Shown here one piece after another: positions 173 through 59,088 of a DNA stretch of 64,000 bases. Origin of the DNA: Simplicispira metamorpha (lineage in GTDB: Bacteria; Pseudomonadota; Gammaproteobacteria; Burkholderiales; Burkholderiaceae_C); contig NZ_SLXH01000002.1 in the NCBI RefSeq assembly GCF_004341365.1, forward strand, positions 1 through 64,000, given 5' to 3'. How positions within the stretch are numbered: position 1 is the stretch's first letter; the number at the start of each line of letters is the position of its first letter. Under the pieces are notes generated by a model. That model saw only the letters and a program-made list of their open reading frames with translations. It did no database searches and was not told the DNA's origin. A program made the position numbers and the translations under genes.

Positions 173-1108
173 ATGACCACCCTCGTTATTGCCGAACACG
201 ACAACGCCAGTATTAAAGGCGCCACCCTCAACACCGTCACGGCGGCCGCAGCCATCGGCGGTGATGTCCACGTGCTGGTCGCAGGCCACAACGCCGGTGC
301 TGCCGCAGCCGCAGCCGCGCACATCGCCGGTGTGGCCAAAGTGCTGCACGCCGACGGCGCCGCCCTGGCCCACGGCCTGGCCGAAAACATGGCCGCGCAA
401 GTGCTGGCCATCGCATCCAACTACAGCCACATCCTGTTTGCCGCCACCGCAGCCGGTAAAAACGTCGCCCCGCGCGTCGCCGCCCTGCTGGACGTCGCGC
501 AGATCAGCGAAATCAGCAAAGTCGTGAGCGCCGACACCTTCGAGCGCCCCATCTACGCCGGCAACGCCATCGCCACCGTGCAAAGCCAGGACGCCACCAA
601 AGTCATCACCGTGCGCTCTACGGGGTTTGACGCTGCAGCCAGCGCCGGACAAGCGCCAGCAGCTATCGAAAGCGTAGCGGCAGTGGCCGACGCCGGACAA
701 AGCAGCTTCCAGGGCAGCGAAATCGCCAAGAGCGACCGGCCCGAACTCACCGCGGCCAAGATCATCGTCTCGGGTGGCCGGGCACTGGGCAGCAAAGAGA
801 AGTTCGACGAAGTCATGACCCCGCTGGCCGACAAGCTGGGCGCCGCACTGGGCGCCAGCCGCGCTGCGGTCGATGCAGGCTACGCCCCCAACGACTGGCA
901 AGTGGGCCAGACAGGCAAGATCGTGGCGCCGCAGCTGTACGTGGCCGCGGGCATCTCGGGCGCCATCCAGCATTTGGCAGGCATGAAAGACAGCAAGGTC
1001 ATCGTGGCGATCAACAAAGACCCCGAGGCGCCCATCTTCAGCGTGGCTGACTATGGGCTGGAGGCCGATCTGTTTACGGCCGTGCCGGAGCTGGTCAAGG
1101 CGCTGTAA
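173..1108 (+). CDS. etfA: electron transfer flavoprotein subunit alpha (FAD-binding)
   Basis: 311 aa, the normal length for ETF alpha. The N-terminal half is the ETF alpha/beta Rossmann-like domain. The C-terminal half carries the FAD-binding signature: SGGRALGS near residue 201, then [11 protein letters not shown] and [12 protein letters not shown] around residues 242-268. It would bind the single FAD of the ETF dimer and pass electrons from acyl-CoA dehydrogenases to the quinone pool. The ATG follows etfB by 10 bp with a GAGGAA Shine-Dalgarno, so the two are one operon, and a strong terminator follows. Residues about 152-166, at the junction of the two domains, are coded by DNA resembling the dispersed repeat seen elsewhere in the window. 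Confidence 0.95.
625..671 (-). repeat. dispersed palindromic element, likely copy inside etfA
   Basis: On the minus strand this reads GATAGCTGCTGGCGC, then a spacer, then GCTGGCTGCAGC, close to the core and second half of the intergenic element. etfA stays open through it and translates it antisense to the core, giving A-P-A-A-I, the same frame as the copy in mutL. Ala-rich sequence is common in this part of ETF alpha, so chance similarity is possible. Confidence 0.45.
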
Positions 1109-4157: not shown

Positions 4158-4193
4158 GCCCCAGACCAGCCGCCCTGGTCGGCTGAATTTCGC

Positions 4194-4255
4194 TACTGAA
4201 ATGAGAGCTGCTCGCGCTTGCCAGGCAAGCCCTGCAGCTCTTTTTTATATCTAAA
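4194..4255 (+). repeat. dispersed palindromic element, intergenic copy
   Basis: Variant copy with CTACTGAAATGAGAGCTGCT, then CGCGCTTGCC, GGCAAGC and GCAGCTC followed by a T-run. It is strongly palindromic. It fills most of the 116-bp gap between the acyl-CoA dehydrogenase and nitronate monooxygenase genes and has the form of a terminator (next entry). Confidence 0.7.
4205..4246 (+). terminator. intrinsic terminator formed by a repeat copy
   Basis: Outer stem GAGCTGC (4205-4211) with GCAGCTC (4234-4240), inner stem GCTTGCC (4216-4222) with GGCAAGC (4224-4230), then six T at 4241-4246. This is a complete hairpin-plus-T-run 48 bp after the dehydrogenase stop codon. Confidence 0.75.
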
Positions 4256-4273
4256 ACTTGTTGGAGACACGCC

Positions 4274-5230: not shown

Positions 5231-6345
5231 AAATCTCCGCGTCCGGGCACACGCGCCAGCACCCGCAAATCGGGCCCTACGCGCTCGGCGCTGGTGAATT
5301 CCAGTGCCTGTGCCTGGGCCAGCTCGCTCAAGGGGCCGATGTTGGCCATGCCCAGGCCGGGCCCCAGCAGCTTGGGCGCCAAATACACCAGCAGCTCATC
5401 GACCAGCCCCTCGCGCAGCAAAGAGCCGTTGAGCTGGTGGCCCGCTTCTACGTGCAGCTCGTTGATGCCGCGCCGCCCCAGGTCGATCAGCATGGCGTGC
5501 AAATCCACCTTGCCTTGCGGATTGGGCAACTGCACTACCGCTGCGCCGCGCGCCTGCAGGGCGGCTTTGCGCGCGGCAAATTCAGCATCCAAAGTGCCTC
5601 CAGCGTAGATGGTGCAAGCGCGACCAGCTATAAAAAGTGCAGCATCTGGCGGCGTTTGCAGGCGGCTATCGATCACCACCACCTGCGGCTGGCGCGGCGT
5701 GGCCACCTCGCGCACATCCAGGCGCGGGTTGTCGCTCCGCACCGTGCCAAAGCCGGTGAGCACGGCGCAGGCGCGGGCGCGCCAGGCGTGGCCATCGGCG
5801 CGCGCGCTGGCAGAGGTAATCCACTGGCTGGCCCCGTTGGCCAGCGCCGTAGTGCCATCCAGCGACGCTGCCACCTTGAGCCGTACCCACGGCGTGCCGC
5901 GCACCATGCGGCTGAAAAAACCGATGTTGAGTTCGCGCGCTTGGTCTGCGCCCGGCCCCACCTCTACTGCCACGCCCGCTGCGCGCAGCCGGGCAAAGCC
6001 CTGGCCACCGACCAGCGGATTGGGGTCGGCAATCGAGCCCACCACACGGCCTATGCCTGCGGCAATCAGTGCATCGCAGCACGGGCCTGTGCGGCCCTGG
6101 TGGGCGCAGGGCTCCAGCGTGACGTAGGCGGTGGCGCCGCGCACATCGTGCCCGGCGGCCTGCGCATCGCGCAGCGCCATCACTTCGGCGTGCGGGCCGC
6201 CCGCCTGCTGCGTAAAGCCTTGGCCCAGCACACGCCCGTCGGGCGTCGCAATGACGCAGCCCACGCGCGGGTTGGGGTTGGAAAGAAAAAGCGCCTGGGC
6301 CGCCAGCCCAAGCGCTTGAGAGATGAAGTGCGCTGTTGTTGTCAT
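5227..6345 (-). CDS. ribD: bifunctional riboflavin biosynthesis deaminase/reductase RibD
   Basis: 372 aa from the ATG at 6345. The frame is open upstream into the pilus gene, but homology begins at MTTTAHFISQAL. Residues 1-145 are the zinc cytidine-deaminase-like domain with HAE (52-54) and the PC-x8-C zinc motif (C80, C89). Residues about 150-365 are the dihydrofolate-reductase-like RibD_C domain (RLKVAASLDG, NPRLDVR, INELHVEAG). It converts the pyrimidinone product of GTP cyclohydrolase II by deamination and then NADPH reduction in riboflavin synthesis. It lies 26 bp downstream of pilE on the same strand, so it may be read through from the pilus operon; no other rib gene is visible. Confidence 0.95.
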   Translation of the reverse strand: MTTTAHFISQALGLAAQALFLSNPNPRVGCVIATPDGRVLGQGFTQQAGGPHAEVMALRDAQAAGHDVRGATAYVTLEPCAHQGRTGPCCDALIAAGIGRVVGSIADPNPLVGGQGFARLRAAGVAVEVGPGADQARELNIGFFSRMVRGTPWVRLKVAASLDGTTALANGASQWITSASARADGHAWRARACAVLTGFGTVRSDNPRLDVREVATPRQPQVVVIDSRLQTPPDAALFIAGRACTIYAGGTLDAEFAARKAALQARGAAVVQLPNPQGKVDLHAMLIDLGRRGINELHVEAGHQLNGSLLREGLVDELLVYLAPKLLGPGLGMANIGPLSELAQAQALEFTSAERVGPDLRVLARVPGRGDF

Positions 6346-10937: not shown

Positions 10938-10964
10938 AGCTGCTCCTTCAATGAAGTTATTTTA

Positions 10965-11023
10965 TTGATCAAAAGTGGCTCTAGTGCTTGCAAAATAAGC
11001 GCTATAAGCTATTGTTTTGATAG
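10965..11023 (-). repeat. dispersed palindromic element, intergenic copy
   Basis: On the minus strand: CAATAGCTTATAGCGCTTAT, a short spacer, then GCACTAGAGCCACTTTTGAT. It occupies most of the 90-bp gap between pilX and pilY1. The T-run after the second half is short, so it could be a partial terminator or a processing site inside the operon. Confidence 0.75.
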
Positions 11024-11027
11024 TGAA

Positions 11028-12716: not shown

Positions 12717-12729
12717 CGACTTGTTTTTC

Positions 12730-12786
12730 GGCTGTTTTTGTCCTGCAAGCTTTGCGGGATAAGCGCCGGCAGCTATGTTTTTTGAG
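12730..12786 (-). repeat. dispersed palindromic element between pilV and pilW
   Basis: On the minus strand: CATAGCTGCCGGCGCTTATC, then GCAAAGCTTGCAGG and an A-rich end. It fills the 76-bp gap between the pilV stop and the preferred pilW ATG. Its frame is open and continuous with pilW; from the alternative ATG it would be read I-A-A-G-A, the frame also used by the miaA and permease copies. Confidence 0.75.
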
Positions 12787-12792
12787 AGCATG

Positions 12793-15119: not shown

Positions 15120-15189
15120 GCATCGTGTTCTGAATAGGCCTCTGGCGCCCGCTGGTACTGCGTTACCAGCTATCTAATCAGGAGCAAAA

Positions 15190-17427: not shown

Positions 17428-17435
17428 CGTCAATT

Positions 17436-17500
17436 TGCTATTGATATGAGAGCTTCTAGCGCCCACCAGTCGGGCGCTAGAGGCCAAAATCATTCAAATT
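17436..17500 (+). repeat. dispersed palindromic element after pnp
   Basis: CTATTGATATGAGAGCTTCT followed by a perfect 10-bp stem, TCTAGCGCCC (17455-17464) with GGGCGCTAGA (17472-17481), loop ACCAGTC. There is no T-run after it, so it is not a standard terminator; it may protect the pnp 3' end. It fills the 92-bp gap before the oxidoreductase gene. Confidence 0.75.
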
Positions 17501-17519
17501 AACGGAGCGCCTTCAGAGC

Positions 17520-18508: not shown

Positions 18509-19255
18509 ATGAACAAAAAACTGATCGCAGGCAATTGGAAAATGAACGGCAGCTTGGCTGCCAACGACGCCTTGGTGCGTGCGCTGGTGGCAGGGCTGGC
18601 AGGGCAGGGTGGTTGTGACGTGGCTGTGGCCGTGCCCGCGCCCTACTTGGCGCAGGTGCAGTCCCTGGTTGCGGGCTCGGCCCTGGCGCTGGCGGCGCAG
18701 GATGTGTCTGCGCACGAGGCAGGTGCTTACACGGGGGAAGTGTCGGCCTTGATGTTGCGCGACTTCGCGGTGCGCTACGCCTTGGTTGGGCACTCGGAGC
18801 GGCGTCAATACCATGCCGAGTCGGATGCCTGCGTGGCGCTGAAGGCACAGCGTGCGCTGGCCGCTGGCATTACACCCATTGTGTGTGTCGGTGAAACGCT
18901 GGCCGAACGCGAAGCGGGAGAAACCGAAGCCGTGGTGCGTCGCCAGCTGGCAGCGGTCATCCATGTCAATGGCCATTGCATCAGTGAAGTGGTGGTGGCG
19001 TACGAGCCCGTGTGGGCCATCGGCACAGGCAAAACTGCCACGCCAGAGCAGGCGCAGCAGGTGCATGCCGTGCTGCGTGCGCAGTTGGCAGCGGCCAGCG
19101 ACAAGGCGGCACGCATTCGACTGCTGTACGGCGGCAGCATGAATGCGGGCAATGCGCAGCAGCTGCTGGCCCAACCCGACATTGATGGCGGGCTGGTCGG
19201 GGGCGCCTCGCTCAAGCCCGCAGACTTCTTGCAAATTATCGCTGCAGCCCAATAA
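18509..19255 (+). CDS. tpiA: triosephosphate isomerase
   Basis: 248 aa. The start [15 protein letters not shown] places the catalytic Lys/Asn at the usual position. VGHSERR near residue 94 holds the electrophilic His, [14 protein letters not shown] near 165 holds the catalytic Glu and flexible loop 6, and LLYGGSMN plus GGLVGGASL form the phosphate-binding loops. It interconverts dihydroxyacetone phosphate and glyceraldehyde 3-phosphate. The frame is open far upstream over the preceding gene, but that is a shadow. It is followed by secG, the conserved tpiA-secG pair of proteobacteria. Confidence 0.97.
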
Positions 19256-19281
19256 GGATAAGCGCTAGGCGCTATCAAATC
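19256..19281 (-). repeat. degenerate copy of the dispersed element (weak)
   Basis: On the minus strand: TTTGATAGCGCCTAGCGCTT. This is the core with two extra or altered bases; the second half would fall inside the tpiA end and is poor. It lies in the 41-bp tpiA-secG gap just before the secG ribosome site. Confidence 0.4.
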
Positions 19282-19296
19282 AGGAGTTATCGAAGA

Positions 19297-34350: not shown

Positions 34351-34366
34351 TACATCTGCCTGCCTC

Positions 34367-34675: not shown

Positions 34676-34705
34676 AAATTGTCAGCGCCTGACCGTTGAT
34701 GCGCT

Positions 34706-35182: not shown

Positions 35183-35216
35183 CCGCTTGCAAGGCAGCAG
35201 GCAGGGCGCTAAATGC

Positions 35217-35272
35217 TTCTTTTTTGATAGCTGCTTGCGCCCGACTGGTAAGCTTTAGGGCCACTTTTTGTT
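35217..35272 (+). repeat. dispersed palindromic element, convergent intergenic copy
   Basis: TTTTTTGATAGCTGCTTGCG, then CCCGACTGGTAAGC, then TTTAGGGCCACTTTTTG. A typical full-length copy between the convergent DUF1178 and ABC exporter genes (115-bp gap). The T-runs on both sides may give some termination in either direction. Confidence 0.85.
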
Positions 35273-35297
35273 CTGAATTGCAGGCTGCGCACATCCG

Positions 35298-37136
35298 TTA
35301 CGTGGCCCATTGCAGCGCCGCCAGCCGCGCGTACACGCCACCCCGTGCCAGCAACTGGGCGTGGCTCCCTTGTTCCACGATGCGCCCGTGCTCCAGCACC
35401 ACGATGCGATCGGCGTTTTGCACTGTGGCCAGCCGGTGGGCGATGACCAAGGTGGTACGCAAACCACTGTGGCGTTGCAGTGCCGCGTCCAGCGCTGCCT
35501 GCACCATGCGCTCGCTCTCGGCATCGAGGGCGCTGGTGGCTTCGTCCAGCAGCAGGAGCAGCGGGTTTTTCAGCAGTGCGCGGGCAATGGCAATGCGCTG
35601 GCGTTGCCCGCCCGACAGGCGCACGCCGCGCTCGCCCAGGAAGGTGGCGTAGCCCTCGGGAAGTGCCTGCAAAAAATCGTGGGCAAAGGCCTCCTTGGCA
35701 GCAGCGATGACTTCAGCGTCTGTGGCGTCGGGGCGACCATAGCGGATGTTGTCCAGCGCACTGGCTGAGAAGATCACTGCATCCTGCGGTACTGTGCCGA
35801 TCTGGCGGCGCACCTCGGGCAGCGCCAGTTCGCGCACATCCACGCCGTTGAGGTAAATGCCCTGGCCCGAACCCGGGGCGTTGTCCACATCGTAAAAGCG
35901 CTGTAGCAGCTGGAACACGGTGGTTTTGCCCGCCCCGCTGGTACCCACCAGGGCCACGGTTTCGCCGGGCTCCAGCGCCAAAGTGACGTTGTGCAAGGCC
36001 ATATGACCGGGGCGGGAAGGGTAGTGAAAATCCACTGCGTTCAGGCGCACGGCCAGGCCCCGGCCCGTGTCAGGCAGTGCGCGCGGTTGCGCAGGCGATG
36101 CCACGGGCGATGCGCTGTCCAGCAGTTCCATCAGTCGCTCGGTGGCACCGGCGGCGCGCAGCAAGTCGCCATACACCTCGCCCAGAACGGCCACAGCACC
36201 GGCCAGCAGCATCACGTACAGCACCGTCTGCCCCAGGTGCCCGGCGCTGGTCTGGCCAGCCAGCACCGCCTGTGTGCCCTGGTACAGACCCCACAGCAGC
36301 AGCGCCGCGTTGGCAATGATGATGAAAGCCACCAGCAGCGCCCGTGTGCGGGTGCGGCGCACGGCGGTGTCAAACGCGGCCTGCGTGGCCTGGGCAAAGC
36401 GGGTGGCTTCGCGCGGCTCGGCGGTGTAGCTTTGCACCACGCTGACGGCGTTGATCACCTCGGCGGCCAGGGCGCTGGAGTCGGCCACCCGGTCTTGGCT
36501 GGCGCGCGATAGGCGGCGCACGCGCCGACCTATCCACATGCCCGGCAGTACCACCAGCACCAGCATCAGCAGCACGATGGCCATGGCGCGTGGATTGGTC
36601 CAGACCAGCATGGCCAGCGCCCCCACGGCCATGACCGCATTGCGCAGCCCCATCGACAGCGACGAACCCACCACGGTTTGCACCAGCGTGGTGTCGGTGG
36701 TCAGGCGCGAGAGCACTTCGCCGGTCTGCGTGGTTTCAAAAAACTGCGGGCTTTGTTGCAACACATGGGCGTACACGGCATTGCGCAGGTCGGCAGTGAC
36801 GCGCTCGCCCAGCCAGCTCACCAGGTAAAAGCGCGCGGCAGAAAAAATGCCCAACGCCACCGCAATGGCCAGCAGCAGGCCAAAGTGCTGGCGCAGCGCC
36901 AGCGTGGCCGCGCCTGCGTTGTCCGCATTGCCCGCGCCTGCGCTGCCTGCGCCCAGGCCCGTGTCAATCAGTGTGCGCAGCGCCCACGGAAAAGCCAGTG
37001 TGGCCAGCGCTGCCAGCAGCAAAAACAACCCGGCTACTGCGATACGCCAGCGGTAGGGGCGCAGAAAAGGCAGCAGTCCGGTGAGTGAGCGCGGCGCGCC
37101 ACGCGCCGGTGTAGAAGCGGAAGGGGAAGAGGCCAT
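35298..37136 (-). CDS. ABC exporter, fused permease and ATPase (MsbA/ABCB-like)
   Basis: 612 aa from ATG 37136; an upstream extension of the frame runs through a repeat copy and is not family sequence. Residues about 35-330 are six transmembrane helices of the type I exporter fold (PFLRPYRWRIAVAGLFLL at the start). The nucleotide-binding domain has Walker A GTSGAGKT (near 395), signature LSGGQRQR (near 508), Walker B LLLLLDEATSALD and H-loop IAHRL. It works as a homodimer that moves lipids or drugs outward from the inner membrane. The substrate is unknown, but this subgroup (half-transporter with an Ala-rich N-terminus) is frequent in Burkholderiales. Confidence 0.93.
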   Translation of the reverse strand: MASSPSASTPARGAPRSLTGLLPFLRPYRWRIAVAGLFLLLAALATLAFPWALRTLIDTGLGAGSAGAGNADNAGAATLALRQHFGLLLAIAVALGIFSAARFYLVSWLGERVTADLRNAVYAHVLQQSPQFFETTQTGEVLSRLTTDTTLVQTVVGSSLSMGLRNAVMAVGALAMLVWTNPRAMAIVLLMLVLVVLPGMWIGRRVRRLSRASQDRVADSSALAAEVINAVSVVQSYTAEPREATRFAQATQAAFDTAVRRTRTRALLVAFIIIANAALLLWGLYQGTQAVLAGQTSAGHLGQTVLYVMLLAGAVAVLGEVYGDLLRAAGATERLMELLDSASPVASPAQPRALPDTGRGLAVRLNAVDFHYPSRPGHMALHNVTLALEPGETVALVGTSGAGKTTVFQLLQRFYDVDNAPGSGQGIYLNGVDVRELALPEVRRQIGTVPQDAVIFSASALDNIRYGRPDATDAEVIAAAKEAFAHDFLQALPEGYATFLGERGVRLSGGQRQRIAIARALLKNPLLLLLDEATSALDAESERMVQAALDAALQRHSGLRTTLVIAHRLATVQNADRIVVLEHGRIVEQGSHAQLLARGGVYARLAALQWAT

Positions 37137-37176
37137 GGTCGCAGTGTAGGGCTTGTGCCTTGGCCGTTTCGTGGTG

Positions 37177-37236
37177 TTTTTGATAGCTGCTAGCGCACAT
37201 CCTGTAAGGCTTGGAGCGGTTTTTGGCTTGTAAATC
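37177..37236 (+). repeat. dispersed palindromic element in a divergent promoter region
   Basis: TTTTTGATAGCTGCTAGCGC, then ACATCCTGTAAGG, then CTTGGAGCGGTTTTTGGCTT. This is one of the best-preserved copies. It lies 40 bp upstream of the exporter gene start in the 287-bp gap shared with the divergent ABC importer operon; I see no convincing promoter boxes in that gap. Confidence 0.88.
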
Positions 37237-37423
37237 GGGCCATGCCCGGTGCAGGCCATCGCCACTGCCATCGGGGGGTAGTTTTCCCTTAGGCATTAAT
37301 ACATAGGCGTTAGCCCCAGTGCTTGCAGGAAGGGTGCGCCCTAGGATGCGATGCAGCAAAGCACCTGCGAGGGCGCGCCATCGGGGCGCGTTTTGTTGAT
37401 TTACACGGAGCGGCCAAGGCGCA

Positions 37424-38194
37424 ATGAGCGACGTCATACTTGAAACCCAGCACCTGACCAAAGAGTTCAAGGGCTTTACCGCGGTCAGCGACGTGACACT
37501 GTCGGTGCGCCGGGGCTCCATCCATGCCCTGATCGGCCCCAACGGTGCAGGCAAAACCACCTGCTTCAATCTGCTGACCAAGTTTCTGGAGCCCACCTCG
37601 GGCACCATCCGCTTCAACGGCCACGACATCACCCGCGAGGCACCGGCGCAGATTGCCCGCCGGGGCGTGATCCGTTCGTTCCAGATATCGGCGGTGTTTC
37701 CGCACCTGACCTTGATCGAGAACGTGCGCATCGGCTTGCAGCGCAAGTTGGGCACGGCGTTCCATTTCTGGCGCAGCGAACGCAGCCTGCGCCAACTCGA
37801 TGAGCGCGCCATGCAGCTGCTCACTGAAGTGGGCCTGGAAGACCTGGCCGACGAGCTCACCGTCAACCTGCCCTATGGCCGCAAGCGCGCGCTGGAGATT
37901 GCCACCACGCTGGCCATGGAGCCCGAACTCATGCTGCTGGACGAGCCCACGCAGGGCATGGGCCACGAGGACGTGGACCGCGTCACGCAGCTCATCAAGA
38001 AAGTCTCTGCCGGGCGCACCATTTTGATGGTCGAGCACAACATGAAAGTCATCTCCACCATCGCCGACCGCATCACCGTGTTGCAGCGCGGCGCTGTGCT
38101 GGCCGAAGGCGCCTACGCCGAGGTGTCGAGCAACCCGCAGGTCATGGAAGCGTACATGGGCACCACCGATGGCCAATTGCAGGGAGCGCACTGA
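37424..38194 (+). CDS. livG: branched-chain amino acid-type ABC transporter ATPase (LivG-like)
   Basis: 256 aa. Walker A GPNGAGKTT at 38-46, the Q-loop in RSFQISAVFP, the LivG-type signature LPYGRKRALEIATTL, Walker B LMLLDEPTQGM and switch His in VEHNM. It would drive import with its partner, the LivF-like gene 1 bp downstream. The gene order ATPase, ATPase, binding protein, two permeases marks one HAAT (hydrophobic amino acid) transporter operon. The substrate could be amino acids, but such systems also take up amides, urea or aromatic acids. Confidence 0.92.
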   Translation: MSDVILETQHLTKEFKGFTAVSDVTLSVRRGSIHALIGPNGAGKTTCFNLLTKFLEPTSGTIRFNGHDITREAPAQIARRGVIRSFQISAVFPHLTLIENVRIGLQRKLGTAFHFWRSERSLRQLDERAMQLLTEVGLEDLADELTVNLPYGRKRALEIATTLAMEPELMLLDEPTQGMGHEDVDRVTQLIKKVSAGRTILMVEHNMKVISTIADRITVLQRGAVLAEGAYAEVSSNPQVMEAYMGTTDGQLQGAH

Positions 38195-38195
38195 C

Positions 38196-38921: not shown

Positions 38922-38977
38922 GCCGCACGGCGGCATTGCTTCTTCTTCATTTTTCACCACGACAACAGGAGACATCC

Positions 38978-40174: not shown

Positions 40175-40213
40175 GCCCTTGACCTGACACACCCTTACCC
40201 TCTGCCGCCTCCC

Positions 40214-41098: not shown

Positions 41099-41110
41099 GG
41101 GGCCGCCAAC

Positions 41111-42106: not shown

Positions 42107-42119
42107 GCCATGGCCCAGG

Positions 42120-42148
42120 GGCGGCCCCACGCGCCACGGGGCGCCGCC
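42120..42148. terminator. possible bidirectional hairpin between convergent genes
   Basis: GGCGGCCCC (42120-42128) pairs with GGGGCGCCGCC (42138-42148) with a small bulge and a 9-nt loop. It has no T-run, so at most it stops transcription with Rho or stabilises 3' ends. It lies between the livM stop and the stop of the lipocalin-like gene. Confidence 0.35.
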
Positions 42149-42161
42149 GCTGGGCACGCCT

Positions 42162-43400: not shown

Positions 43401-46174
43401 TACCAATCTTCTTTGACTGCCAGCACCGCATCGCGCCCGGCGGCGGCGCGGCCAGCGAGCCAGGCGGTCAGCGTGCCGCACAGCACCACGGCCACGGCCA
43501 GCGCCAGCAGGCGCAGCAAGGGCAGGCGCAGCTCCATCGTCCAGTGAAAGCTCTGCGGATTGACCACATGTACCAGCACCACGGCCACCGCCGTGCCCAG
43601 CAGCACGCCCGCCACGGCGCCCGCGCCCGTCCAGGCAGCGCCTTCGCCCGCCACCACGGTGAGGATTTGCCGCCGCGTCAGGCCCAGGTGCGCCAGCAGG
43701 CCGAACTCTTTGCGCCGCGCCAGCACCTGGGCGCTGAAGCTGGCGGCCACGCCGAACAAACCGATGCCAATGGCCACCGCCTGCAGCCAGTAAGTGACGG
43801 CAAAGCTGCGGTCGAAAATTTGCAGCGAACGGGTGCGGATGGCCTGCGCGGTGCCAAATTCCAGCAGCGGTGCATCTGCGCCTGCGCTGGTGGTCTCGGT
43901 GCCTGTGCTCGTCGCTGCCCCTGTTCGTCGCGATTCGGCCTGCGCCAGCGCTTCAATGGTTTGCTGCAAGGTGGCCAGGTCGGCATCGCTGGTGCCCGTG
44001 TCGTCCGGGCGGTTGCTGCCCGCGTCGGTGCGGGTGCTGCGCGGCCAGATGGCCAGGTCGTTGGCGTAGCCGTCGCCCGTCAGGCGGATGTAGTCAGCCG
44101 TATCCATGGCCACGGCCCCGGTCTGGCGGGCATAGTCACGCCACACACCTGCTACAAAAAACGGAGCTGCGTGCGCTTTCTGTGATTGGCTTTGCACCAT
44201 AAAAGCCTTGGAAAGAGCGGGCAGTGTCTGGCCCGGCGCTGCACCCCACAGCGCGGCCATGGCTTCGCTGGCATACACGGGGATATGGCCCGGCGGCACG
44301 GGCAGGGCTGGCGCCACCAGTGCCAGCGTGCGCGCGGGCTCAGGGCCCAGGGGGCGTGCCAGCAGTGTGATGGCCGGGCGGTCTGGGGCCAACAGCAAGT
44401 TCACCACCCGCGTGCCTTGTACCCGCTCCACGCCGGGCAATTGCGCGATGCGCTGCAACAGCGCCGGGCTGAACACCGGGGCATCGGTGCCCGTGCTGGT
44501 GGCACTGCGTGCGTACAGCGGGGCGGGCAGCACGGCGTCCAGCCAGTCGATCACGGAGCCGCGAAAGCTGGTCACCATTACGGTGAGCGCTACGGCCAGA
44601 CTCAGGCTGGCCACCACGCCGCCCACGGCCACGGCGGCGCTGTGCTGGGTGCGTCGCGCGCGCTCCAGGGCCAGCAGCGCCAGCAGGTGCGGTGCAGTGC
44701 CCGGGTGGTACCAGCGCAGCCCCCAGGCCACGCCCCAGGGCAGCAGCGCAATGCCGCCGACCAGCAGCAGGGCAATCGACACATACGCTGCCAAAGGTAT
44801 GCCAAAAACGGGTGGAACGTAGGCCAGAAAAGCGCTGGCAGCTATCAAAACCATACCGGGCCAGGCCGCTGGTGTACCCATGCTGCCCTGGCCCAGGCCC
44901 TTGAGGGTTTGCGCGGGCGGCAGCGCCTGCGCCGCCCGCGCGGGCCACCAGCCGCCCAGCAGCGCTGCCCCCACGCCCAGGCCGCCGTACAGCAGCGCTG
45001 CTGCCCAGCTCCATTGCAGCGCGGGCCGTGCCCCGGTGAAATAACCACCGCCCAGGTCGCCCCCCAGCAGGCGCAGCGCCAGCGCCGCCAGCGCCGTGCC
45101 CAGCGCAATGCCCGCAGCGCTGCCCACCAGCCCCAGCACCAGCGATTCGGCCAGCACCAGTTGCAGGCGCTGGCGCGGCGTGGCGCCCAGTACCGCCAGC
45201 AGAGCAAAAGCGCTGGCACGCTGCGCCACGCTCAGCGCCAGCACCGAAAACACCAAAAAAGCCCCGGTAAACAGCGCCACCAGCGCCAACACCGTCAGGT
45301 TGACGCGGTAGGCGCGCGTGAGGTTGCCCACGCTCTGGGCCGCATCACCGGGCTCGGCCCAGAGCACGTTGGCGGGCCAGCCGGGCGTGGCTTGGAGCGC
45401 CTGCTGCACTGCCTCGGGCACGCTGCCCGGTTGCCATTGCAGGTCGATGCGGGTGAGTTGGCCTGCGCGCCCGAACAGGTCTTGTGCGGCGCCAATGTCC
45501 ATCACCGCCAGCGGTGCGCCCGGTGCGGCAATGCTGCCCGCCACGCGCACCCGCACGCGCTGTAACCCGGTCTGCAACAGCAGCAGTGGCGTTTGCGTGG
45601 GCTGGCTGGAGACGCCCAGCGCCTGCATCGCCGCTGCGTTGAGAAACACCGTGGCCGGGGCAAACAGCGCCCAGCGGTCTGCTGGCAGGCTGGAAAACGC
45701 CTGTGGCATCCAGGCCGGGGCTGTGGCGGGCAGCAGCAAGGCATCGGCGCCGATGATGCGCAGCGGGGTGCTGGCCGGTGTGGTCGTAGTGGTGGACTGG
45801 GCGGGTGCAGCGTCGGTATCGGGCGCAGGGGGCGCGGCAGAGGCTGGGCCATAGTGCGCTGCGCCATCAGCGGGCAGCGCCTGTGCCAGCACCGACAGCT
45901 CCAGCACCGGGCTGGCGCGCGCCACCTGCGGGTGTGTGGCCACACGCTCGTACACCGATTCGCTGAAATGGCCTTGCACTGCGCGCAACTGCACATCGGG
46001 CTGGCCGCTGACGTTGCGCACCGCCTGGGCAAACTCATCCAGTGCCGAGGCGTTGATGGTGTGTACGGCAAACGCCAGCGCCACCCCCAGCATCACGGCG
46101 CAGGCGGCGGCGGCGCTGCGCCAGGGGTGGTGGCGCAGCTCTTGCAGCGACCAGGTGCGAAGCAAAGCAAACAT
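43400..46174 (-). CDS. large ABC transporter permease, FtsX/MacB-like (AttF/AttG-like)
   Basis: 924 aa from ATG 46174 (FALLRTWSLQELRHHPWRS, a cytosolic amphipathic helix). Two FtsX-like units: TM1 near 22-40, a periplasmic domain, three helices near 275-450 (ALVALFTGAFLVFSVLALSV), then a second half with the same arrangement and final helices at about 800-915. Such permeases, with a LolD-like ATPase, extract lipophilic substances from the inner membrane. Two stretches are coded by DNA similar to the dispersed element. It is upstream of and coupled to the AttH-like gene; the likely ATPase lies beyond the hsp20 gene. Confidence 0.88.
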   Translation of the reverse strand: MFALLRTWSLQELRHHPWRSAAAACAVMLGVALAFAVHTINASALDEFAQAVRNVSGQPDVQLRAVQGHFSESVYERVATHPQVARASPVLELSVLAQALPADGAAHYGPASAAPPAPDTDAAPAQSTTTTTPASTPLRIIGADALLLPATAPAWMPQAFSSLPADRWALFAPATVFLNAAAMQALGVSSQPTQTPLLLLQTGLQRVRVRVAGSIAAPGAPLAVMDIGAAQDLFGRAGQLTRIDLQWQPGSVPEAVQQALQATPGWPANVLWAEPGDAAQSVGNLTRAYRVNLTVLALVALFTGAFLVFSVLALSVAQRASAFALLAVLGATPRQRLQLVLAESLVLGLVGSAAGIALGTALAALALRLLGGDLGGGYFTGARPALQWSWAAALLYGGLGVGAALLGGWWPARAAQALPPAQTLKGLGQGSMGTPAAWPGMVLIAASAFLAYVPPVFGIPLAAYVSIALLLVGGIALLPWGVAWGLRWYHPGTAPHLLALLALERARRTQHSAAVAVGGVVASLSLAVALTVMVTSFRGSVIDWLDAVLPAPLYARSATSTGTDAPVFSPALLQRIAQLPGVERVQGTRVVNLLLAPDRPAITLLARPLGPEPARTLALVAPALPVPPGHIPVYASEAMAALWGAAPGQTLPALSKAFMVQSQSQKAHAAPFFVAGVWRDYARQTGAVAMDTADYIRLTGDGYANDLAIWPRSTRTDAGSNRPDDTGTSDADLATLQQTIEALAQAESRRTGAATSTGTETTSAGADAPLLEFGTAQAIRTRSLQIFDRSFAVTYWLQAVAIGIGLFGVAASFSAQVLARRKEFGLLAHLGLTRRQILTVVAGEGAAWTGAGAVAGVLLGTAVAVVLVHVVNPQSFHWTMELRLPLLRLLALAVAVVLCGTLTAWLAGRAAAGRDAVLAVKEDW
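44151..44208 (+). repeat. possible dispersed element copy inside the ABC permease gene (1)
   Basis: Plus strand GCTACAAAAAACGGAGCTGC then GTGCGCTTTCTGTGATTGGC and TTTGCACC. The head matches the miaA copy (AAACAGGAGCTGC). The permease reads it antisense in frame A-H-A-A-P, again the A-x-A-A frame. The second half is weak. Confidence 0.4.
44797..44851 (-). repeat. dispersed element copy inside the ABC permease gene (2)
   Basis: Minus strand (coding) GTTTTGATAGCTGCCAGCGC, a 19-nt middle, then CACCCGTTTTTGGC. Head and tail both match intergenic copies such as 37177-37236. It is translated L-I-A-A-S-A-F-L-A-Y and forms part of a transmembrane segment, so the coding strand carries the core in the stop-free frame. 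Confidence 0.6.
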
Positions 46175-46500
46175 GGCGCCGATTGTGGCCCCGGCAGGGC
46201 TGCGCCCCGCCGTTGGCGATGGATGGGCGAATGCTGGCAGGGGCTGTTGATGGGTAAAAATGATAGCTGCCAGCGCTTGCTGCATAAGGGCTGGAGCCAG
46301 ATTTGGCTTCAAACTGGGGCAGATGGCAACGCATGGGTGCTGTGTGCCCGGCCCGTGTTGCGCGGCCCGGCGCCCAACAGCATTTGGTTGCAGTTGTGCG
46401 CTATGGCCCCTTGAAGTGCGTGGGTGTTGCGCTTATCTTGAACAGTGCCCTGCACTGGCGCGGGGCACCTTCTTCACCCCTTTCTGTAAGGAGCATTGTC
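46175..46500. other. divergent intergenic region between ABC permease and hsp20
   Basis: 326 bp without a gene. It contains the repeat copy at 46256-46314 and the leader of hsp20. CTTGAA occurs twice (near 46409 and 46437), like the -35 of heat-shock sigma-32 promoters, but I find no matching CCCCAT-type -10 at the right distance. An AAGGAG ribosome site lies at the end. Confidence 0.6.
46256..46314 (+). repeat. dispersed palindromic element upstream of the ABC permease
   Basis: AAAAATGATAGCTGCCAGCG, then CTTGCTGCATAAGG, then GCTGGAGCCAGATTTGGCTT. A full-length copy 82 bp before the permease start, in the gap shared with hsp20. The permease frame happens to be open through it, but the ATG at 46174 is the likely start. 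Confidence 0.85.
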
Positions 46501-46929: not shown

Positions 46930-46959
46930 GCAGCGGTGGCGGCGGCGCAGCGCTGCGCA

Positions 46960-47631: not shown

Positions 47632-48620
47632 GGGGTGTTGGCGTCTATGCGTTGCAGCACGGCCTGCACCAGTTGCTGCGTGGCGGTGGGCTGGTCGCAG
47701 GCGATGGCGTTGCGCTCGGGCATGCTGCGCAGCCAGGTGATTTGCCGTTTGGCCAGTTGCCGGGTGGCGGCGATGCCGCGCTCGCGCAGCATGCCCAGGT
47801 TCAGTGGCGTGCCTGCGGGGCGGTTGGCCTGGAAGTCGAGTTCTTCCCACGCCTGGCGGTAGCCCACGCAGCGCATGGAGGGCAGGTCGGGGTGCAGGTC
47901 GCCGCGCGCGCGCAGGGCACGCACTTCGTCGATAAAACCAGCCTCCAGCATGGCGTCAAAGCGCTGGGCAATGCGCTGGTGCAGCCAGGCTCGGTCGGTG
48001 GGTTCTAAAGAAAAAAGCGCTCCAGCACTGATGGGGCGTGCGCTTGCAGCTCCTGTTTTGATAGTGTGAAAACTCGACAGCGGCTGCCCGGAAATCTCCC
48101 AGACTTCCAGGGCGCGCTGTATGCGCTGGCTGTCGGCGGGGGCCAGGCGCGCGGCGGTGGCGGGGTCGATGCGGGCCAGCTCGGCGTGCAGTGCGGGCCA
48201 GCCGTGCTCGTGTGCCCGGGCCTCGATGCGCGCGCGCACGGCAGCGTCGGCGGCGGGCATGGCGTCGATGCCATCGAGCAGCGCCTTGAAGTACAGCATG
48301 GTGCCACCCACCAGCAGCGGCAGTGCGCCGCGCGCGCGGATGTCGGCGATCAACTCCGTGGCGTCTTGCACAAACTCGGCGGCGCTGTAGGCCAGCAGGG
48401 GGTCGCGGATGTCGATGAGGTGGTGCGGGACAAAGGCGCGCTCCTCGGGCGTGGGCTTGGCGGTGCCAATGTCCATGCCGCGATAGACCAGTGCCGAATC
48501 GACGCTGATGATTTCTACCGGCAGGCGCCGCGCCAGCACAGCGGCAATGGCCAGTGCGCCAGCGGTTTTGCCCGAGGCCGTGGGGCCCGCGATGGCGATG
48601 CAGGGCAGGGTGGTGTTCAT
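47628..48620 (-). CDS. miaA: tRNA dimethylallyltransferase (i6A37 synthase)
   Basis: 330 aa from ATG 48620. P-loop GPTASGKT (12-19), then [16 protein letters not shown] and HHLIDIRDP, the dimethylallyl/tRNA site, and [11 protein letters not shown] near the end. It adds an isopentenyl group to A37 of tRNAs reading UNN codons. Residues about 185-206 ([20 protein letters not shown]) are encoded by a dispersed element copy in a surface region that varies in length among MiaA proteins. The start overlaps the MFS gene stop, and the stop overlaps the next ATPase gene. miaA is normally near mutL and hfq; hfq is not in this window. Confidence 0.96.
48004..48069 (-). repeat. dispersed element copy inside miaA (in frame)
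   Basis: Coding (minus) strand: CACACTATCAAAACAGGAGC, TGCAAGCGCACGCC, then CAGTGCTGGAGCGCTTTTTT. Core and second half match intergenic copies in order and spacing. It is read in frame G-A-A-S-A-R, and the reading frame is kept on both sides, adding about 20 residues between the LSSF and [10 protein letters not shown] family motifs. Confidence 0.75.
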
Positions 48621-51510: not shown

Positions 51511-51517
51511 GTTGCTG

Positions 51518-52368: not shown

Positions 52369-54615
52369 TCAGCGGCCGCGCAGAAACAGCGCGTCCAGCT
52401 CGCGCATGGACAGTTGCCGCCAGGTGGGCCGACCGTGGTTGCACTGGTCGGAGCGCTCGGTCACTTCCATCTGGCGCAGCAGGGCGTTCATTTCGTCCAG
52501 CGTCAGGCGCCGGTGGGCGCGCACGGCGCCGTGGCAGGCCATGGTGGCCAGGATGTCGCTCTGCGCGCGCTGCACTACGGTGCTGGCGTCGTGCGCGGCC
52601 AGGTCGGCCAGCACGCTGCGCGCCAGCTCTACCGCATCGCCTTGCGCCAGTGTGCTGGGCACGGCGCGCACGGCCAGGGTTTTGGGCGAGAACGGCGTCA
52701 CTTCCAGGCCCAGTGTGGCCAGGGTGTCAGCGTGGGCTTCGGCGCAAGCCACTTCATGGGCGGTGGCGGCAAAGGTGGCCGGAATCAGCAGCGGCTGGCT
52801 GGGGATGCGCGCCGCTGTGGCGGCCTGCGCTTTCAGGCGCTCATAGACGATGCGCTCGTGGGCAGCGTGCATATCGACCAGCACCAATCCCTGGGCGTTT
52901 TCGGCCAGGATGTACACGCCGTGCAGTTGGGCCAGCGCGCGGCCCAGGGGCCAGGCGGGGGCGCTGGCGTAGGGGTCGCTGTCGTTCGGGTTCTGGATGG
53001 GCGTTGGGTGCTGTGCGCTGGCTGGTGCGTCTGCACGGGCCGCCGGTGCCTCAGTGCTCGCGCTGGTGACGGGCAGGCTGTGGCGCCCCGTCTGGTCTGG
53101 CGCGAAGTGTTGCGCTGCCGGGTGCCCTGCCACCTCGTGGGGCGTTGTGCTGGCAGCCAGGCCATGCCAGGGGTTTGCCTGTGCGCCGCTGTCTGCGGGT
53201 GTTTTGCCCCACAGCGCCCCCAGGTCGGTCACGCGGTGGCCCACGCGATCATCAAAATGTATAGCTGCTTGCGCTTGCTGCGCGGGCGTTGGAGGCCAGT
53301 TTGGCTTGAGATTTGATGCTGTGCCGGGCCAGGCTGCCGTGCGGGGGCTTGCGTCCGCAGCGGTGGCAGGGGGGCTGCCCGGCGCACCCGCAGCATCTGC
53401 GCTTTCTGCCGCCGCTGCCAGTGCCGCTGCGCGCGGCACGGCCAGGGCGTTTTCTACGGCGTGGCGCACGGCCTGGTGGACTTCGCGGCTGTCTCTGAAG
53501 CGCACCTCGATCTTGGTCGGGTGGACGTTCACGTCCACCCGCGCCGGGTCGATCTCGATATAGAGCGCATACACGGGCTGGCGTTGGCCGTGCAGCACGT
53601 CTTCGTAGGCGCTGCGCGCGGCATGTTGCACGACTTTGTCGCGCACAAAGCGGCCATTGACGTAGCAGTATTGCTGGTCGGCGCGCGCGCGGGCGGCGTC
53701 GGGCAGCCCGGCGCGGCCCGTGACGGTGACGCGCCCTTCGCGGTGGTGCAGGGGCACCGATTGCGCGACGAACGCCTCGCCCAGCACATCGGCCAGGCGC
53801 CGGGCCAGCGTGGCCTGGGCGTCGGTGCTGGGTGCTGCCTGGCTGGCCGCTGGCGCGTCGCCCTCCGGGGGTATGGGGCTGGCGGACTGTGCAGGCGGCT
53901 GGCCGGGCACGAAGGTGGCGCGCCACTGCTCCACCAGCTTGCCCTCGTGCCAGATGGCAAAGCCCACGTCGGGCCGCGCCAGTGCGTGGCGGCGCACGGC
54001 CTCGACGCAGTGGGCCAGTTCGGTGGCGTCGGTTTTCAAAAACTTGCGCCGCGCCGGGGTGCTGAAAAACAGCTCTTTCACTTCCACCGTGGTGCCGGTG
54101 GCGCGGGCCACGGGGCGCAGTTCGCCGCTGCGCGCGTCCAGCAAGAAAGCGCTGTCTTGCCCGTGCGGGCGCGAGAGCAAGGCGGTTTCTGACACCGAGC
54201 AGATGGCGGCCAGCGCCTCGCCCCGAAAACCCATGGTGACCACGGTTTCCAGCTCGTGCAGGTCGGTGATTTTGCTGGTGGCGTGGCGGCGCAGGGCAAT
54301 GGGCAGCTCGTCGCGGGCAATGCCGCTGCCGTCGTCCTCGACGGCAATCAGCCGCACGCCGCCAGCCAGCAGCCGCACGGTGATCTGGCTGGCGCCCGCG
54401 TCCAGGGCGTTGTCCACCAGCTCGCGCACCACCGAGGCGGGGCGCTCCACCACTTCGCCAGCGGCAATCTGGCTGATGAGTTCGTCGGGCAGGTCGCGGA
54501 TGGGGCGGCGGGCTGGAGCGGCGGGCGCCGCCGTGGCAGTGGCCGGTGCAGGGGAGGAAGAGGTGGCGCTGGAGGGGGTGGCGCTGGCGCGGGCGCTGGG
54601 GTCAAGGGCATTCAC
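52369..54615 (-). CDS. mutL: DNA mismatch repair protein MutL, endonuclease type
   Basis: 748 aa from GTG 54615; ATG 54663 is an alternative that adds 16 Pro-rich residues. The GHKL ATPase has IRDLPDELISQIAAGEVVERP, DNALDAGA, DDGSGI and GFRGEALAAI. A long Ala/Pro-rich linker (about 410-550) leads to the C-terminal domain, with the endonuclease motif DMHAAHERIVYE near 578 (DQHA-x2-E-x4-E with Met for Gln, as in Neisseria), CNHGRPTW near 725 and terminal FLR. It nicks the error strand in species without MutH. About 20 linker residues are encoded by a dispersed element copy. Confidence 0.94.
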   Translation of the reverse strand: MNALDPSARASATPSSATSSSPAPATATAAPAAPARRPIRDLPDELISQIAAGEVVERPASVVRELVDNALDAGASQITVRLLAGGVRLIAVEDDGSGIARDELPIALRRHATSKITDLHELETVVTMGFRGEALAAICSVSETALLSRPHGQDSAFLLDARSGELRPVARATGTTVEVKELFFSTPARRKFLKTDATELAHCVEAVRRHALARPDVGFAIWHEGKLVEQWRATFVPGQPPAQSASPIPPEGDAPAASQAAPSTDAQATLARRLADVLGEAFVAQSVPLHHREGRVTVTGRAGLPDAARARADQQYCYVNGRFVRDKVVQHAARSAYEDVLHGQRQPVYALYIEIDPARVDVNVHPTKIEVRFRDSREVHQAVRHAVENALAVPRAAALAAAAESADAAGAPGSPPATAADASPRTAAWPGTASNLKPNWPPTPAQQAQAAIHFDDRVGHRVTDLGALWGKTPADSGAQANPWHGLAASTTPHEVAGHPAAQHFAPDQTGRHSLPVTSASTEAPAARADAPASAQHPTPIQNPNDSDPYASAPAWPLGRALAQLHGVYILAENAQGLVLVDMHAAHERIVYERLKAQAATAARIPSQPLLIPATFAATAHEVACAEAHADTLATLGLEVTPFSPKTLAVRAVPSTLAQGDAVELARSVLADLAAHDASTVVQRAQSDILATMACHGAVRAHRRLTLDEMNALLRQMEVTERSDQCNHGRPTWRQLSMRELDALFLRGR
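53253..53312 (+). repeat. dispersed element copy inside mutL (in frame)
   Basis: Plus strand: AAAATGTATAGCTGCTTGCG, CTTGCTGCGCGGGC, then GTTGGAGGCCAGTTTGGCTT. This is nearly identical in layout to the intergenic copy at 46256-46314. mutL reads the opposite strand in frame Q-A-Q-A-A-I-H-F, adding about 20 residues to the disordered linker without a stop or shift. Confidence 0.88.
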
Positions 54616-55358: not shown

Positions 55359-55373
55359 GGTTGGCGCCAATCT

Positions 55374-55437
55374 GCTCTTTTATTGATAGCTGTTAGCGCA
55401 CGCCACGTGTGCGTTCAGGCCTGTTTTTGCCTGAATT
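55374..55437 (+). repeat. dispersed palindromic element after dedA
   Basis: TTTTATTGATAGCTGTTAGC, GCACGCCACGTGTGC, then GTTCAGGCCTGTTTTTGCCT. It contains the hairpin TTCAGGC (55414-55420) with GCCTGAA (55429-55435). It starts 16 bp after the dedA stop, between convergent genes. Confidence 0.78.
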
Positions 55438-55445
55438 TCTGACCG

Positions 55446-57405: not shown

Positions 57406-57869
57406 GCGTTCATTCCTTGTAAAAGGCCGCAGCCCAAGGGGGTGTGTGCGTGCAGCACGGCACGGCGCTGGTGGTCGTCAATTGCTTCAATAGTAATAGC
57501 TATGTCCGCAGGCGGGATAAGCCCTACAGCCTTTTCAGGCCATTCGGCCAGCTTCAGGCCCGGGGCGGCAAAGATGTCGCGAAAGCCCGCGTCCTCCCAC
57601 TCGCGCGGGTCATCGAAGCGGTAAAAATCAAAGTGCCAGATGGCCAGGCCCGGTGCCTCGTGCGGCTCCACCACAGCGTAGGTCGGGCTTTTGATGCGGC
57701 CTTGAACGCCCAGCGCGCGCAGCAGGTGGCGCACCAGCGTGGTTTTGCCCGCACCCAGGTCGCCGTGCAGGGTGATGAAAGCGTTGGCCAGCAGCGGCTG
57801 CGCGGCCAGCTGGCGGGCCAACGCGGCGGTGTCGTCTTCGTTGTGCCAAGTGCAGTGGCGCAGCTCCAT
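57402..57869 (-). CDS. tsaE: tRNA threonylcarbamoyladenosine biosynthesis ATPase TsaE
   Basis: 155 aa from ATG 57869. Walker A GDLGAGKTT (36-44), SPTYAVVEPHE and WHFDFYRFDDPREWEDAGF (the Walker B-like block with catalytic Asp), then LAEWPEKAVGLIPPADI. It drives the TsaB-TsaD complex in t6A37 formation. The C-terminal segment after EWPEK matches a dispersed element in DNA, though those residues also align to ordinary TsaE. It is divergent from queG with a 27-bp gap. Confidence 0.94.
   Translation of the reverse strand: MELRHCTWHNEDDTAALARQLAAQPLLANAFITLHGDLGAGKTTLVRHLLRALGVQGRIKSPTYAVVEPHEAPGLAIWHFDFYRFDDPREWEDAGFRDIFAAPGLKLAEWPEKAVGLIPPADIAITIEAIDDHQRRAVLHAHTPLGCGLLQGMNA
57485..57541 (+). 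repeat. possible dispersed element copy inside tsaE
   Basis: Plus strand TCAATAGTAATAGCTATGTC, CGCAGGCGGGATAAGCC, then CTACAGCCTTTTCAGGC. Second half and tail are close to intergenic copies, but the core is altered (AATAGCTATG). tsaE reads it antisense through A-D-I-A-I-T. The encoded EWPEKA-x-G is a family motif, so either the element wrote over a conserved stretch or the match is partly chance. Confidence 0.5.
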
Positions 57870-57896: not shown

Positions 57897-58994
57897 ATGG
57901 TGGTGTGCAGCAGTCAACTCGTTCCTCAAATTCAGCAGTGGGCGCGCGAACTGGGATTTTCCCAAATCGGCGTGGCCGGGGTGGATTTGTCCGACGCCGA
58001 GCCCGGATTGGTGCAGTGGCTGGCCCAGGGGTTCCATGGCGATATGGCTTATATGGCCGCGCACGGTTTGAAGCGCGCGCGGCCCGCCGAGCTGGTGCCC
58101 GGCACCGTCAGCGTGATTACGGCGCGCATGGATTATTTGCCCCGCGCCACCCCGGACGGCTGGCAGGCGCTGGAGTTTGCGCGCTTGCACGATCCGGCGC
58201 AAGGCGCTGTCTCGCTCTATGCCCGGGGGCGTGACTACCACAAGGTGCTGCGTACGCGGCTGCAAAAGCTGGCCGAGCGCATTGCGCAGGCCGTGGGGCC
58301 GCTGGGCCACCGGGCGTTCACCGACTCGGCGCCGGTGCTGGAGGCCGAGCTGGCCAGCCGCAGCGGCCAGGGCTGGCGTGGCAAGCACACGCTGGTGCTC
58401 AACCGCGATGCGGGCTCGATGTTTTTTCTGGGCGAAATCTATATCGACCTGGCCCTGCCCGCCAGCGCGCCGGTGAGCGCGCACTGCGGCCAGTGCCGCG
58501 CCTGCCTGGACGTGTGCCCCACGCAAGCCATCGTGGCGCCCTACCGGCTGGATGCACGCCGTTGCATCTCTTACCTGACCATCGAGCATGCCGGGCCGAT
58601 TCCGCTGGACTTGCGCCCGCTGCTGGGCAACCGCATTTACGGCTGTGACGATTGCCAGCTGGCCTGCCCCTGGAACAAGTTTGCCCAGACCAGCACCTTG
58701 CCCGACTTTGACGCGCGTGCCGGTTTGTCGGGCCAGCAACTGGTGCATTTGTTTGCCTGGGACGAGGCCACCTTTTTGCGCCTGACCGAAGGCGGCCCCA
58801 TCCGCCGCATTGGCCACGAGCGCTGGCTGCGCAACGTGGCCGTGGCGCTGGGCAACGCGCTGCGCGCTGCGGGTGAGGCGGGCGCTGCGGGTGCGGACGC
58901 TGGCGCGCTGCGGGCCGCATTGCAGTCGCGCGCGCAGCACGACAGCGCCCTGGTGCGCGAACATGTGGCCTGGGCGCTGGCGCAAGCCCATTGA
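57897..58994 (+). CDS. queG: epoxyqueuosine reductase QueG
   Basis: 365 aa from ATG 57897. The N-terminal cobalamin-binding domain (about 10-180) has GFSQIGVAGVDL, MDYLP and GRDYHKVLRTRL. Two [4Fe-4S] motifs follow: CGQCRACLDVCP near 197-208 and CDDCQLACPWNKF near 249-261. The C-terminal part has a HEAT-like helical end (RRIGHERWLRNVAVALGNALR). It reduces epoxyqueuosine in tRNA to queuosine. It is divergent from tsaE, as in other proteobacteria where queG neighbours tsaE-amidase-mutL. Confidence 0.95.
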   Translation: MVVCSSQLVPQIQQWARELGFSQIGVAGVDLSDAEPGLVQWLAQGFHGDMAYMAAHGLKRARPAELVPGTVSVITARMDYLPRATPDGWQALEFARLHDPAQGAVSLYARGRDYHKVLRTRLQKLAERIAQAVGPLGHRAFTDSAPVLEAELASRSGQGWRGKHTLVLNRDAGSMFFLGEIYIDLALPASAPVSAHCGQCRACLDVCPTQAIVAPYRLDARRCISYLTIEHAGPIPLDLRPLLGNRIYGCDDCQLACPWNKFAQTSTLPDFDARAGLSGQQLVHLFAWDEATFLRLTEGGPIRRIGHERWLRNVAVALGNALRAAGEAGAAGADAGALRAALQSRAQHDSALVREHVAWALAQAH

Positions 58995-59052
58995 AGGTCA
59001 AAAGCGGCTCTAACCCAACAGGAGTGCGCGCAAGCAGCTATCAAAATAATAG
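58995..59052 (-). repeat. dispersed palindromic element after queG
   Basis: Minus strand: TATTTTGATAGCTGCTTGCG, CGCACTCCTGTTGGG, then TTAGAGCCGCTTTTGACC. A full copy directly after the queG stop in the 94-bp gap to convergent cheB. Confidence 0.88.
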
Positions 59053-59088
59053 TTATTCCTGCGCCGCTGAAGGCGCTGCTGCCACCCT

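Follow-up and report, generated by a model that had tools for sequence, protein, structure and literature searches.

A REP-like family of ~68-bp palindromic elements at gene ends in Simplicispira metamorpha and its relatives, with copies that appear to be held in place by selection

What is the short palindromic sequence near position 37177, and what has placed so many copies of its layout in this DNA? An earlier note described about 16 copies in the window (the whole 64-kb stretch analyzed here), in both orientations. Scored with an 82-column ungapped weight matrix, trained on 183 copies from the source genome and 75 from relatives, all 16 listed positions have an element within 70 bases, at 22.5–67.0 bits; 15 of the 18 copies now counted in the window belong to the training set, and the other three (anchors 12777, 44162, and 57495) score 32–34 bits. 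The control maxima of this matrix are 0.3 bits on the reversed window and 6.5 bits over 20 one-strand shuffles. A first matrix, built from 33 copies near the exact core, had given 17 window matches above 8 bits, with control maxima of −8 (5 shuffles) and −7 (reversed window); it missed the copy at 12730 and placed those at 44151 and 57485 at 8–9 bits only. Two copies beyond the earlier list, at 5632 and 15174, bring the window total to 18 in 64 kb (Table 1), and matches at 10973 and 17488 are already counted copies seen on the other strand. The entry at 44793..44860 may not be a true copy, because in three of four relatives the stretch is equally long and bears no likeness to it; convergence, or replacement of a coding stretch, are the alternatives. 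No Rfam family matched the window above its gathering score. Elsewhere in the window, positions 63156–63997 hold three copies of a 179-nt direct repeat (67–89% identical to the reference copy) within a long − strand ORF, which probably encodes a repeat protein, and the first gene region (1–1113) has paralogous matches of 82–95% identity on contigs C34, C35, and C36 of the same genome.

Table 1. Element copies in the window, with scores from the 82-column matrix and the state of the corresponding site in relatives
Positions	Strand	Score (bits)	Anchor	Relatives	Context
614..681	-	22.5			weak; within a called gene (own crude gene caller)
4189..4256	+	60.4	4203	filled in 16/16	gap between co-oriented genes
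5579..5646	-	51	5632	>10 bits in 4/5	beyond the earlier list
10960..11027	-	67.0		filled in 2/3	
12724..12791	-	33.1	12777	filled in 2/5	weak
15121..15188	-	50	15174	16/18	beyond the earlier list; leader of a 745-aa gene
17434..17501	+	64.0	17448	filled in 17/17	
19223..19290	-	49.5	19276	filled in 13/20	abuts a ribosome-binding site
35212..35279	+	62.7	35226	filled in 7/16	convergent genes
37168..37235	+	50.8	37182	filled in 3/15 (relatives with valid anchors; 19 would include loci with a wrong second anchor)	copy of the earlier note; divergent genes
44148..44215	+	33.5	44162	filled in 5/5	
44793..44860	-	36.8	44846	>10 bits in 1/4	doubtful; within a called gene
46248..46315	+	55.3	46262	empty in 4/4 tested	
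48001..48068	-	48.0		filled in 6/6	
53246..53313	+	56.5		filled in 5/5	
55371..55438	+	55.8		filled in 2/2 tested	convergent genes
57481..57548	+	32.3	57495	empty in 4/4 tested	weak
58989..59056	-	53.3			convergent genes

The earlier note anticipated hundreds of copies per genome, and this is what the assembly holds. The core GATAGCTGCTNGCGC, allowing at most one mismatch, occurs 426 times (221 + 205) in 3.78 Mb, and the reversed pattern occurs 0 times, so the family extends well beyond the copies first listed. Both orientations are common: in 864 kb of the genome, 97 copies on the + strand and 86 on the − strand exceed 12 bits, and the reversed-sequence control yields none above that threshold. 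Extrapolation from these 183 copies suggests a genome total of ~800. An artefact of composition or of the profile might be suspected from the training of the profile on the same genome and from the doubtful match at 44846; against the core count and the empty reversed controls, we give that explanation next to no credence.

Across the family the element is patchily distributed. Counts of the core, which is that of the source genome's own lineage only, range from 0 to 545 matches over 250 family genomes, and small counts are to be read as background because the reversed control reaches 19 in one genome. With a profile (R1), at least one match was found in 114 of the 250 genomes, and in 71 the element is abundant (at least 14 of at most 20 candidates scored per genome). 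In a sample of 300 genomes from the order, with at most 16 candidates scored per genome, 21 matched: 6 belong to the same family, and the 15 from outside it have one or two matches apiece. At G063:C39:144717-152075 and G186:C104:6683-10828, both in element-poor genomes, matches occupy three places within a few kilobases, as though an element-rich relative had donated a block of genes.

The anatomy of the unit differs from that first described. Weight matrices place sharp borders ~68 bp apart (columns −14 to +53), longer than the 55–60 bp proposed, and where 10–14 free bases had been described the spacing is fixed and the unit free of gaps. The consensus consists of TTGCTATTAAATTTGATAGCTGCTAGCGC, ~11 loosely conserved bases, a right arm like GCGCTGGAGGCC, and then TTTT, GAC, and AAAT, with A/T-rich tracts near columns −13, −3, 40, and 51. 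It forms an imperfect palindrome centered at about column 20 (central palindrome, ~33), and some copies are recognized from both strands. Columns 1–4 mostly read ATAG, with G in 12% of copies at column 1 and in 15% at column 2. Information amounts to ~0.57 bits per position over 70 positions, or ~40 bits. Among 13 neighboring pairs, four form mirror composites whose anchors are separated by exactly 81 bases; in one pair the separation is 6, in the opposite sense.

Paired substitutions in the stem, which the earlier note would have counted as support, are missing. The arms are complementary in the consensus; across 98 copies, the covariation score is 0.161 versus 0.161 in shuffles, and 63.7% of cells pair versus 63.9% in shuffles. 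The inner pairs comprise two weakly positive and two negative ones (z of 2.5, 2.1, −1.3, and −2.1), and the variance of pairing between copies is inflated, 19 copies having at least 7 of 8 pairs versus 6.5. Nor does pairing exceed that of permuted columns in E. vulgaris (3.86 vs. 4.20) or in genomes G225 and G254 together (4.68 vs. 4.96). A stem selected for pairing across copies was rejected, as pairing shows no net excess; conservation of the element is additive, column by column without covariation. One copy may have taken a path of its own. The copy at 15121..15188 lies immediately 5′ of the ribosome-binding site of the 745-aa gene, which we take from gene order to be pnp, and by eye its CTGGTA/TACCAG-type arms change together in relatives; this hairpin is possibly an RNA switch or processing hairpin derived from an element copy.

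Copies are located at gene ends and favor convergent genes. Crude gene calls put 127 of the 183 copies in intergenic DNA and 40 within called genes, with 16 partial; the 40 are an upper bound. Among gaps of 70–300 bp, again by crude calls, a copy is present in 26 of 43 convergent gaps (60%), 54 of 190 co-oriented gaps (28%), and 8 of 68 divergent gaps (12%). Within co-oriented gaps there is no orientation bias, with 37 copies in the same sense as the genes and 41 in the opposite sense. Identity with predicted terminators was considered and rejected: one of the seven copies in 34001–54000 overlaps one of the 29 terminator-like sites there.

The copies are old, and they show no presence differences among the close relatives tested. 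No near-identical copies were found among the 183, the best pair being 78% identical (best pair in 50 column shuffles: average 74%, maximum 78%), and no pair exceeds 78% identity in 400 kb of Extensimonas vulgaris. Pairs above 70% identity number 143 versus 13 on average in column shuffles; with the maximum near shuffle level despite this excess, subfamilies are weak. Orthologous sites with and without the element, the second line of support named by the earlier note, do exist at ~80% identity but not among the close relatives compared. In three Extensimonas genomes with 89–99% identical flanks, 0 of 53 comparisons at ~15 sites were empty (51 exceed 12 bits, the other 2 lie in the range 5–12); these are 26 comparisons at 14 sites plus 27 in the reverse direction at mostly the same sites, and they cover 14 of the 66 copies in 400 kb from G222, most counted both ways. 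For 15 of the 18 window sites compared with six genus relatives, 47 of 72 comparisons are filled, made up of 24/44 at nine intergenic sites and 23/28 at six further sites placed by flank alignment. Gaps that are empty in the source genome are filled in relatives in 1 of 154 cases. Filling by site spans the whole range, from complete at 17448 and 4203 to nil at 46262 and 57495 (Table 1), and the 37182 site is empty in the closest relative, G260. No insertion with clean borders was caught in the compared sites. Extensimonas also carries a ~180-bp repeat with dozens of 80–100% identical copies in all three genomes (L311:410-591, G222:C1) and an 81-bp repeat in many copies (L311:13726-13806); unlike the element, both look recently amplified.

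Orthologous sites allow change in the different columns of one copy to be compared. Identity to relatives at 4203, 35226, and 37182 is 88, 80, and 73% in constrained columns and 34, 34, and 32% in free columns, with flanks at 18–38%; random copies from the same genome agree at 81% of constrained and 36% of free columns. At 17448 the values are 84% (constrained), 56% (free), and 26% (flanks), and sites 15174 and 19276 are less informative because their flanks are conserved too (84 and 72%). The identity of constrained columns is partly there by construction, because the copies in relatives were found with the profile; the informative part is that orthologous places still show a profile match when free columns and flanks are already saturated. 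Differences in 13 close comparisons at nine sites fall on 18 of 208 positions in constrained columns, 67 of 351 in intermediate columns, and 65 of 325 in free columns (constrained vs. free, p = 0.0004). Within the same copies, the rate of change at constrained columns is thus below half that at free columns. The neighboring flanks of these pairs, which probably consist mostly of coding sequence, differ at 111 of 1,170 positions; they are as slow to change as the constrained columns, so that the comparison runs without a true neutral reference. Natural selection seems to maintain the copies at their sites, a sign that the element may be of use to the cell.

The middle of the element, described at first as completely free between copies, instead carries letters that are specific to lineages. 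Majority letters of the loop columns differ between the source genome and E. vulgaris at column 18 (p = 4e-14), and those of the G225/G254 group differ at column 19 (p = 6e-10, 19 copies). At three orthologous sites in four genomes, copies of the G225 group carry the letters of their own lineage, with a mean log-ratio of +2.0 vs. −3.8 for copies of the source genome (p = 1e-6, from 15 training copies and 12 non-independent copies of four related genomes). Shared loop letters of this kind imply either that copies have been exchanged within genomes or that a common reader has been changing.

Regarding the linked RAYT gene that the earlier note proposed to look for, a gene of this type is indeed present between two inverted copies but does not predict the element. 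The source genome has three Y1_Tnp genes, two of which adjoin TnpB-like ORFs, presumably as in IS200/IS605. The third, on contig C27, scores 85.2 against a cut-off of 80 for the NCBIfam equivalog REP_Tyr_transpos (REP-associated tyrosine transposase), matches the solved TnpA_REP structure 4er8 (E = 2e-5), and contains an HFH motif. A + copy lies upstream (51.5 bits) and a − copy downstream (27.1 bits), an inverted flanking layout seen at 3 of 719 genes of the scanned contigs, C27 not being among them. At 81 transposase loci (the source genome and the closest 80 of 418 relatives), the zone 20–60 bases past the stop codon is among the 1% most element-like stretches of its locus in 55 cases and scores more than 10 bits in 32; 30 of the 719 source-genome genes have a copy in that 3′ register. 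With the first matrix, an upstream copy did not show up at most loci. The element-like 3′ match could be one more long-conserved site.

The ends of the transposase gene are marked by other sequences. Its terminal motifs are GGGGTCAG/GGGGACAC and not the element, the 3′ zone also contains GGGGACACATCAAA-type sequence, and GGGGTCAGATTCC lies near both gene ends in many species. At the source-genome locus (L034), the GGGG-type motif is found on both sides, both on the − strand, and it is inverted in several relatives. That the element is the transposase's own terminal repeat was rejected, as the GGGG motifs differ from it and GGGGTCAGATTCC occurs 0 times in 864 kb. The closest named relatives of the transposase include Extensimonas, Acidovorax, Giesbergeria, and Simplicispira. 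The gene is near-universal, with 237 of 250 family genomes matched and mostly one match each, which is odd for a transposase; as the element is abundant in 71 of the 250, presence of the gene does not predict it. A close relative of the transposase is found in 49 of 71 element-rich genomes versus 31 of 179 others (kinship ignored, as in the other tests), and three element-rich genomes (G040, G163, and G131; 74, 70, and 87% complete) gave no transposase match. The idea that matches in element-poor genomes mark the transposase was likewise rejected. The two are neighbors in 0 of 24 genomes, the smallest distance being 48 kb; these 24 are the ones, among 38 element-poor genomes with some match, that also have a listed transposase place.

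Comparison with described repeats reveals both similarities and differences. Like REP/BIME sequences associated with GTAG-tagged RAYTs, the element is a short extragenic palindrome present in hundreds of copies at gene 3′ ends and between convergent genes, in a genome with a REP-type tyrosine transposase flanked by inverted copies. Unlike REPs, it is ~68 bp rather than 20–40 bp, its head is mostly ATAG instead of a GTAG or CGTC tag at the palindrome foot, it lacks stem covariation and near-identical copies, it is mostly solitary, and many of its sites are conserved between species. REPs and RAYTs are described in Nunvar 2010 (PMC2817692) and Di Nocera 2013 (PMC3733652), whose main texts contain no Acidovorax, Delftia, Polaromonas, Rhodoferax, or Comamonas. 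The TIRYT or TIRtron transposases, as portrayed in PMC3733652 and under subclass 2.1 in PMC6006769, have GGGGWSAS terminal repeats; the transposase here resembles them in having GGGGTCAG near both ends and a GGGGACA-type 3′ sequence in many species, and the dispersed element differs in not being a terminal repeat. BREs are also dispersed and mostly intergenic, and PMC3110155 places them in Bordetella and other betaproteobacteria, including Comamonadaceae, as ~90-bp, tandem units of 69% G+C in Bordetella with at most 29 copies. The element differs from BREs in size, composition, and layout, a distinction drawn from the description of BREs and not from their sequence.

The closest precedents are two printed motifs. 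PMC5217627 (2017, Table 7) gives GCTTAT(N)5AAGCG in Acidovorax ebreus, with 114 copies near genes, 107 of them intergenic (44 convergent, 4 divergent, and 59 co-oriented), and ATAGCT(N)22CAAAAG in Polaromonas naphthalenivorans, with 125 copies. Where they are listed there, the two stand as separate potential novel motifs, with no function given and not joined as a family. Compared by the printed motif only, that of A. ebreus fits the register of element columns 13–28; the spacing of the Polaromonas motif misfits the element columns, ATAGCT alone is shared, and none of the 81 transposase loci matches the full motif. Judged by these letters, one fragment of the element, perhaps two, may have been printed in 2017 as an unexplained motif. 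Searches with the sequence letters of the element itself gave no relevant hit among the open-access papers listed. In number and place, and probably in origin, the element is REP-like; in size, tag, covariation, and near-identity it departs from an active REP.

We consider the element, at a probability of about 0.5, to be a REP-like family of ~68 bp that was spread long ago by a transposase, is now immobile, and is kept as binding or transcript-end sites. It is dispersed over many genera of a single betaproteobacterial family, at the ends of genes. Its origin would lie in non-autonomous mobile DNA of the single-strand type, moved in the distant past by a tyrosine transposase of the REP type (HUH, Y1), a gene with related sequence still at its 3′ end. 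At present it would serve, at the ends of transcripts and in a small number of leaders, as a dyad-symmetric site with additive readout. The most likely reader would be a dimeric host protein on double-stranded DNA; alternatively, the element would act as a mild hairpin in the message. Such a role is our inference as to how selection acts on the copies. That the copies are simply intrinsic terminators or mRNA-stabilizing hairpins of a common type seems unlikely, even though the folded consensus is a long, imperfect hairpin with a T tract after it, gene 3′ ends are preferred, and hairpin energy in 60 sampled copies is mildly better than in shuffles (mean z −1.28 forward and −1.04 reverse, vs. 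−0.30 for flanks). Paired changes are absent, just 18 of the 60 copies forward and 13 reverse reach z below −2, and placement among co-oriented genes is neutral in orientation. Still less probable is a REP or MITE family currently mobilized by a transposase. The HUH motif and flanking copies of the C27 gene, along with the more frequent close transposase relative in element-rich genomes, would fit such a family, but the 78% ceiling on pair identity in the source genome and in E. vulgaris, and the 53 Extensimonas comparisons with no polymorphic site, argue against ongoing movement.

A more serious competitor, although we hold it only tentatively, is that these are selected sites spread over the chromosome, with no transposase ever involved. 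They would then be a signal of architectural, topoisomerase, or uptake type for one dimeric protein, built and maintained by selection or biased exchange. This reading accords with a consensus that is dyad-symmetric yet without covariation, with copies that share little beyond the profile, and with sites kept over the genus and never empty in the close comparisons. The A/T tracts lie near helical-turn spacing, and the loop letters shift genome-wide by lineage, as they would with a changing reader protein. Against it, ~40 bits would be hard to build at ~800 places without copying, and the subfamilies, however weak, do exist. A related possibility, to which we lend similarly limited weight, is that ~800 dyad-symmetric 68-bp sites per chromosome constitute an undescribed family-wide system with a putative single dimeric reader of architectural, topological, or transcript-end function, kept by selection and with loop letters that change together with the reader; a transposase-derived repeat may have been co-opted for it.

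To our knowledge, accounts of REP repeats usually treat them as selfish or domesticated and offer no proof that single copies are under selection. What is unusual here is the evidence that copies are held column by column. Hundreds of conserved sites in many genera allow constrained columns to be set against free ones, which makes it directly testable whether such a repeat is junk or a site. The element also gives a handle on a candidate reader protein, and it would account for at least one of the motifs published in 2017 without explanation.
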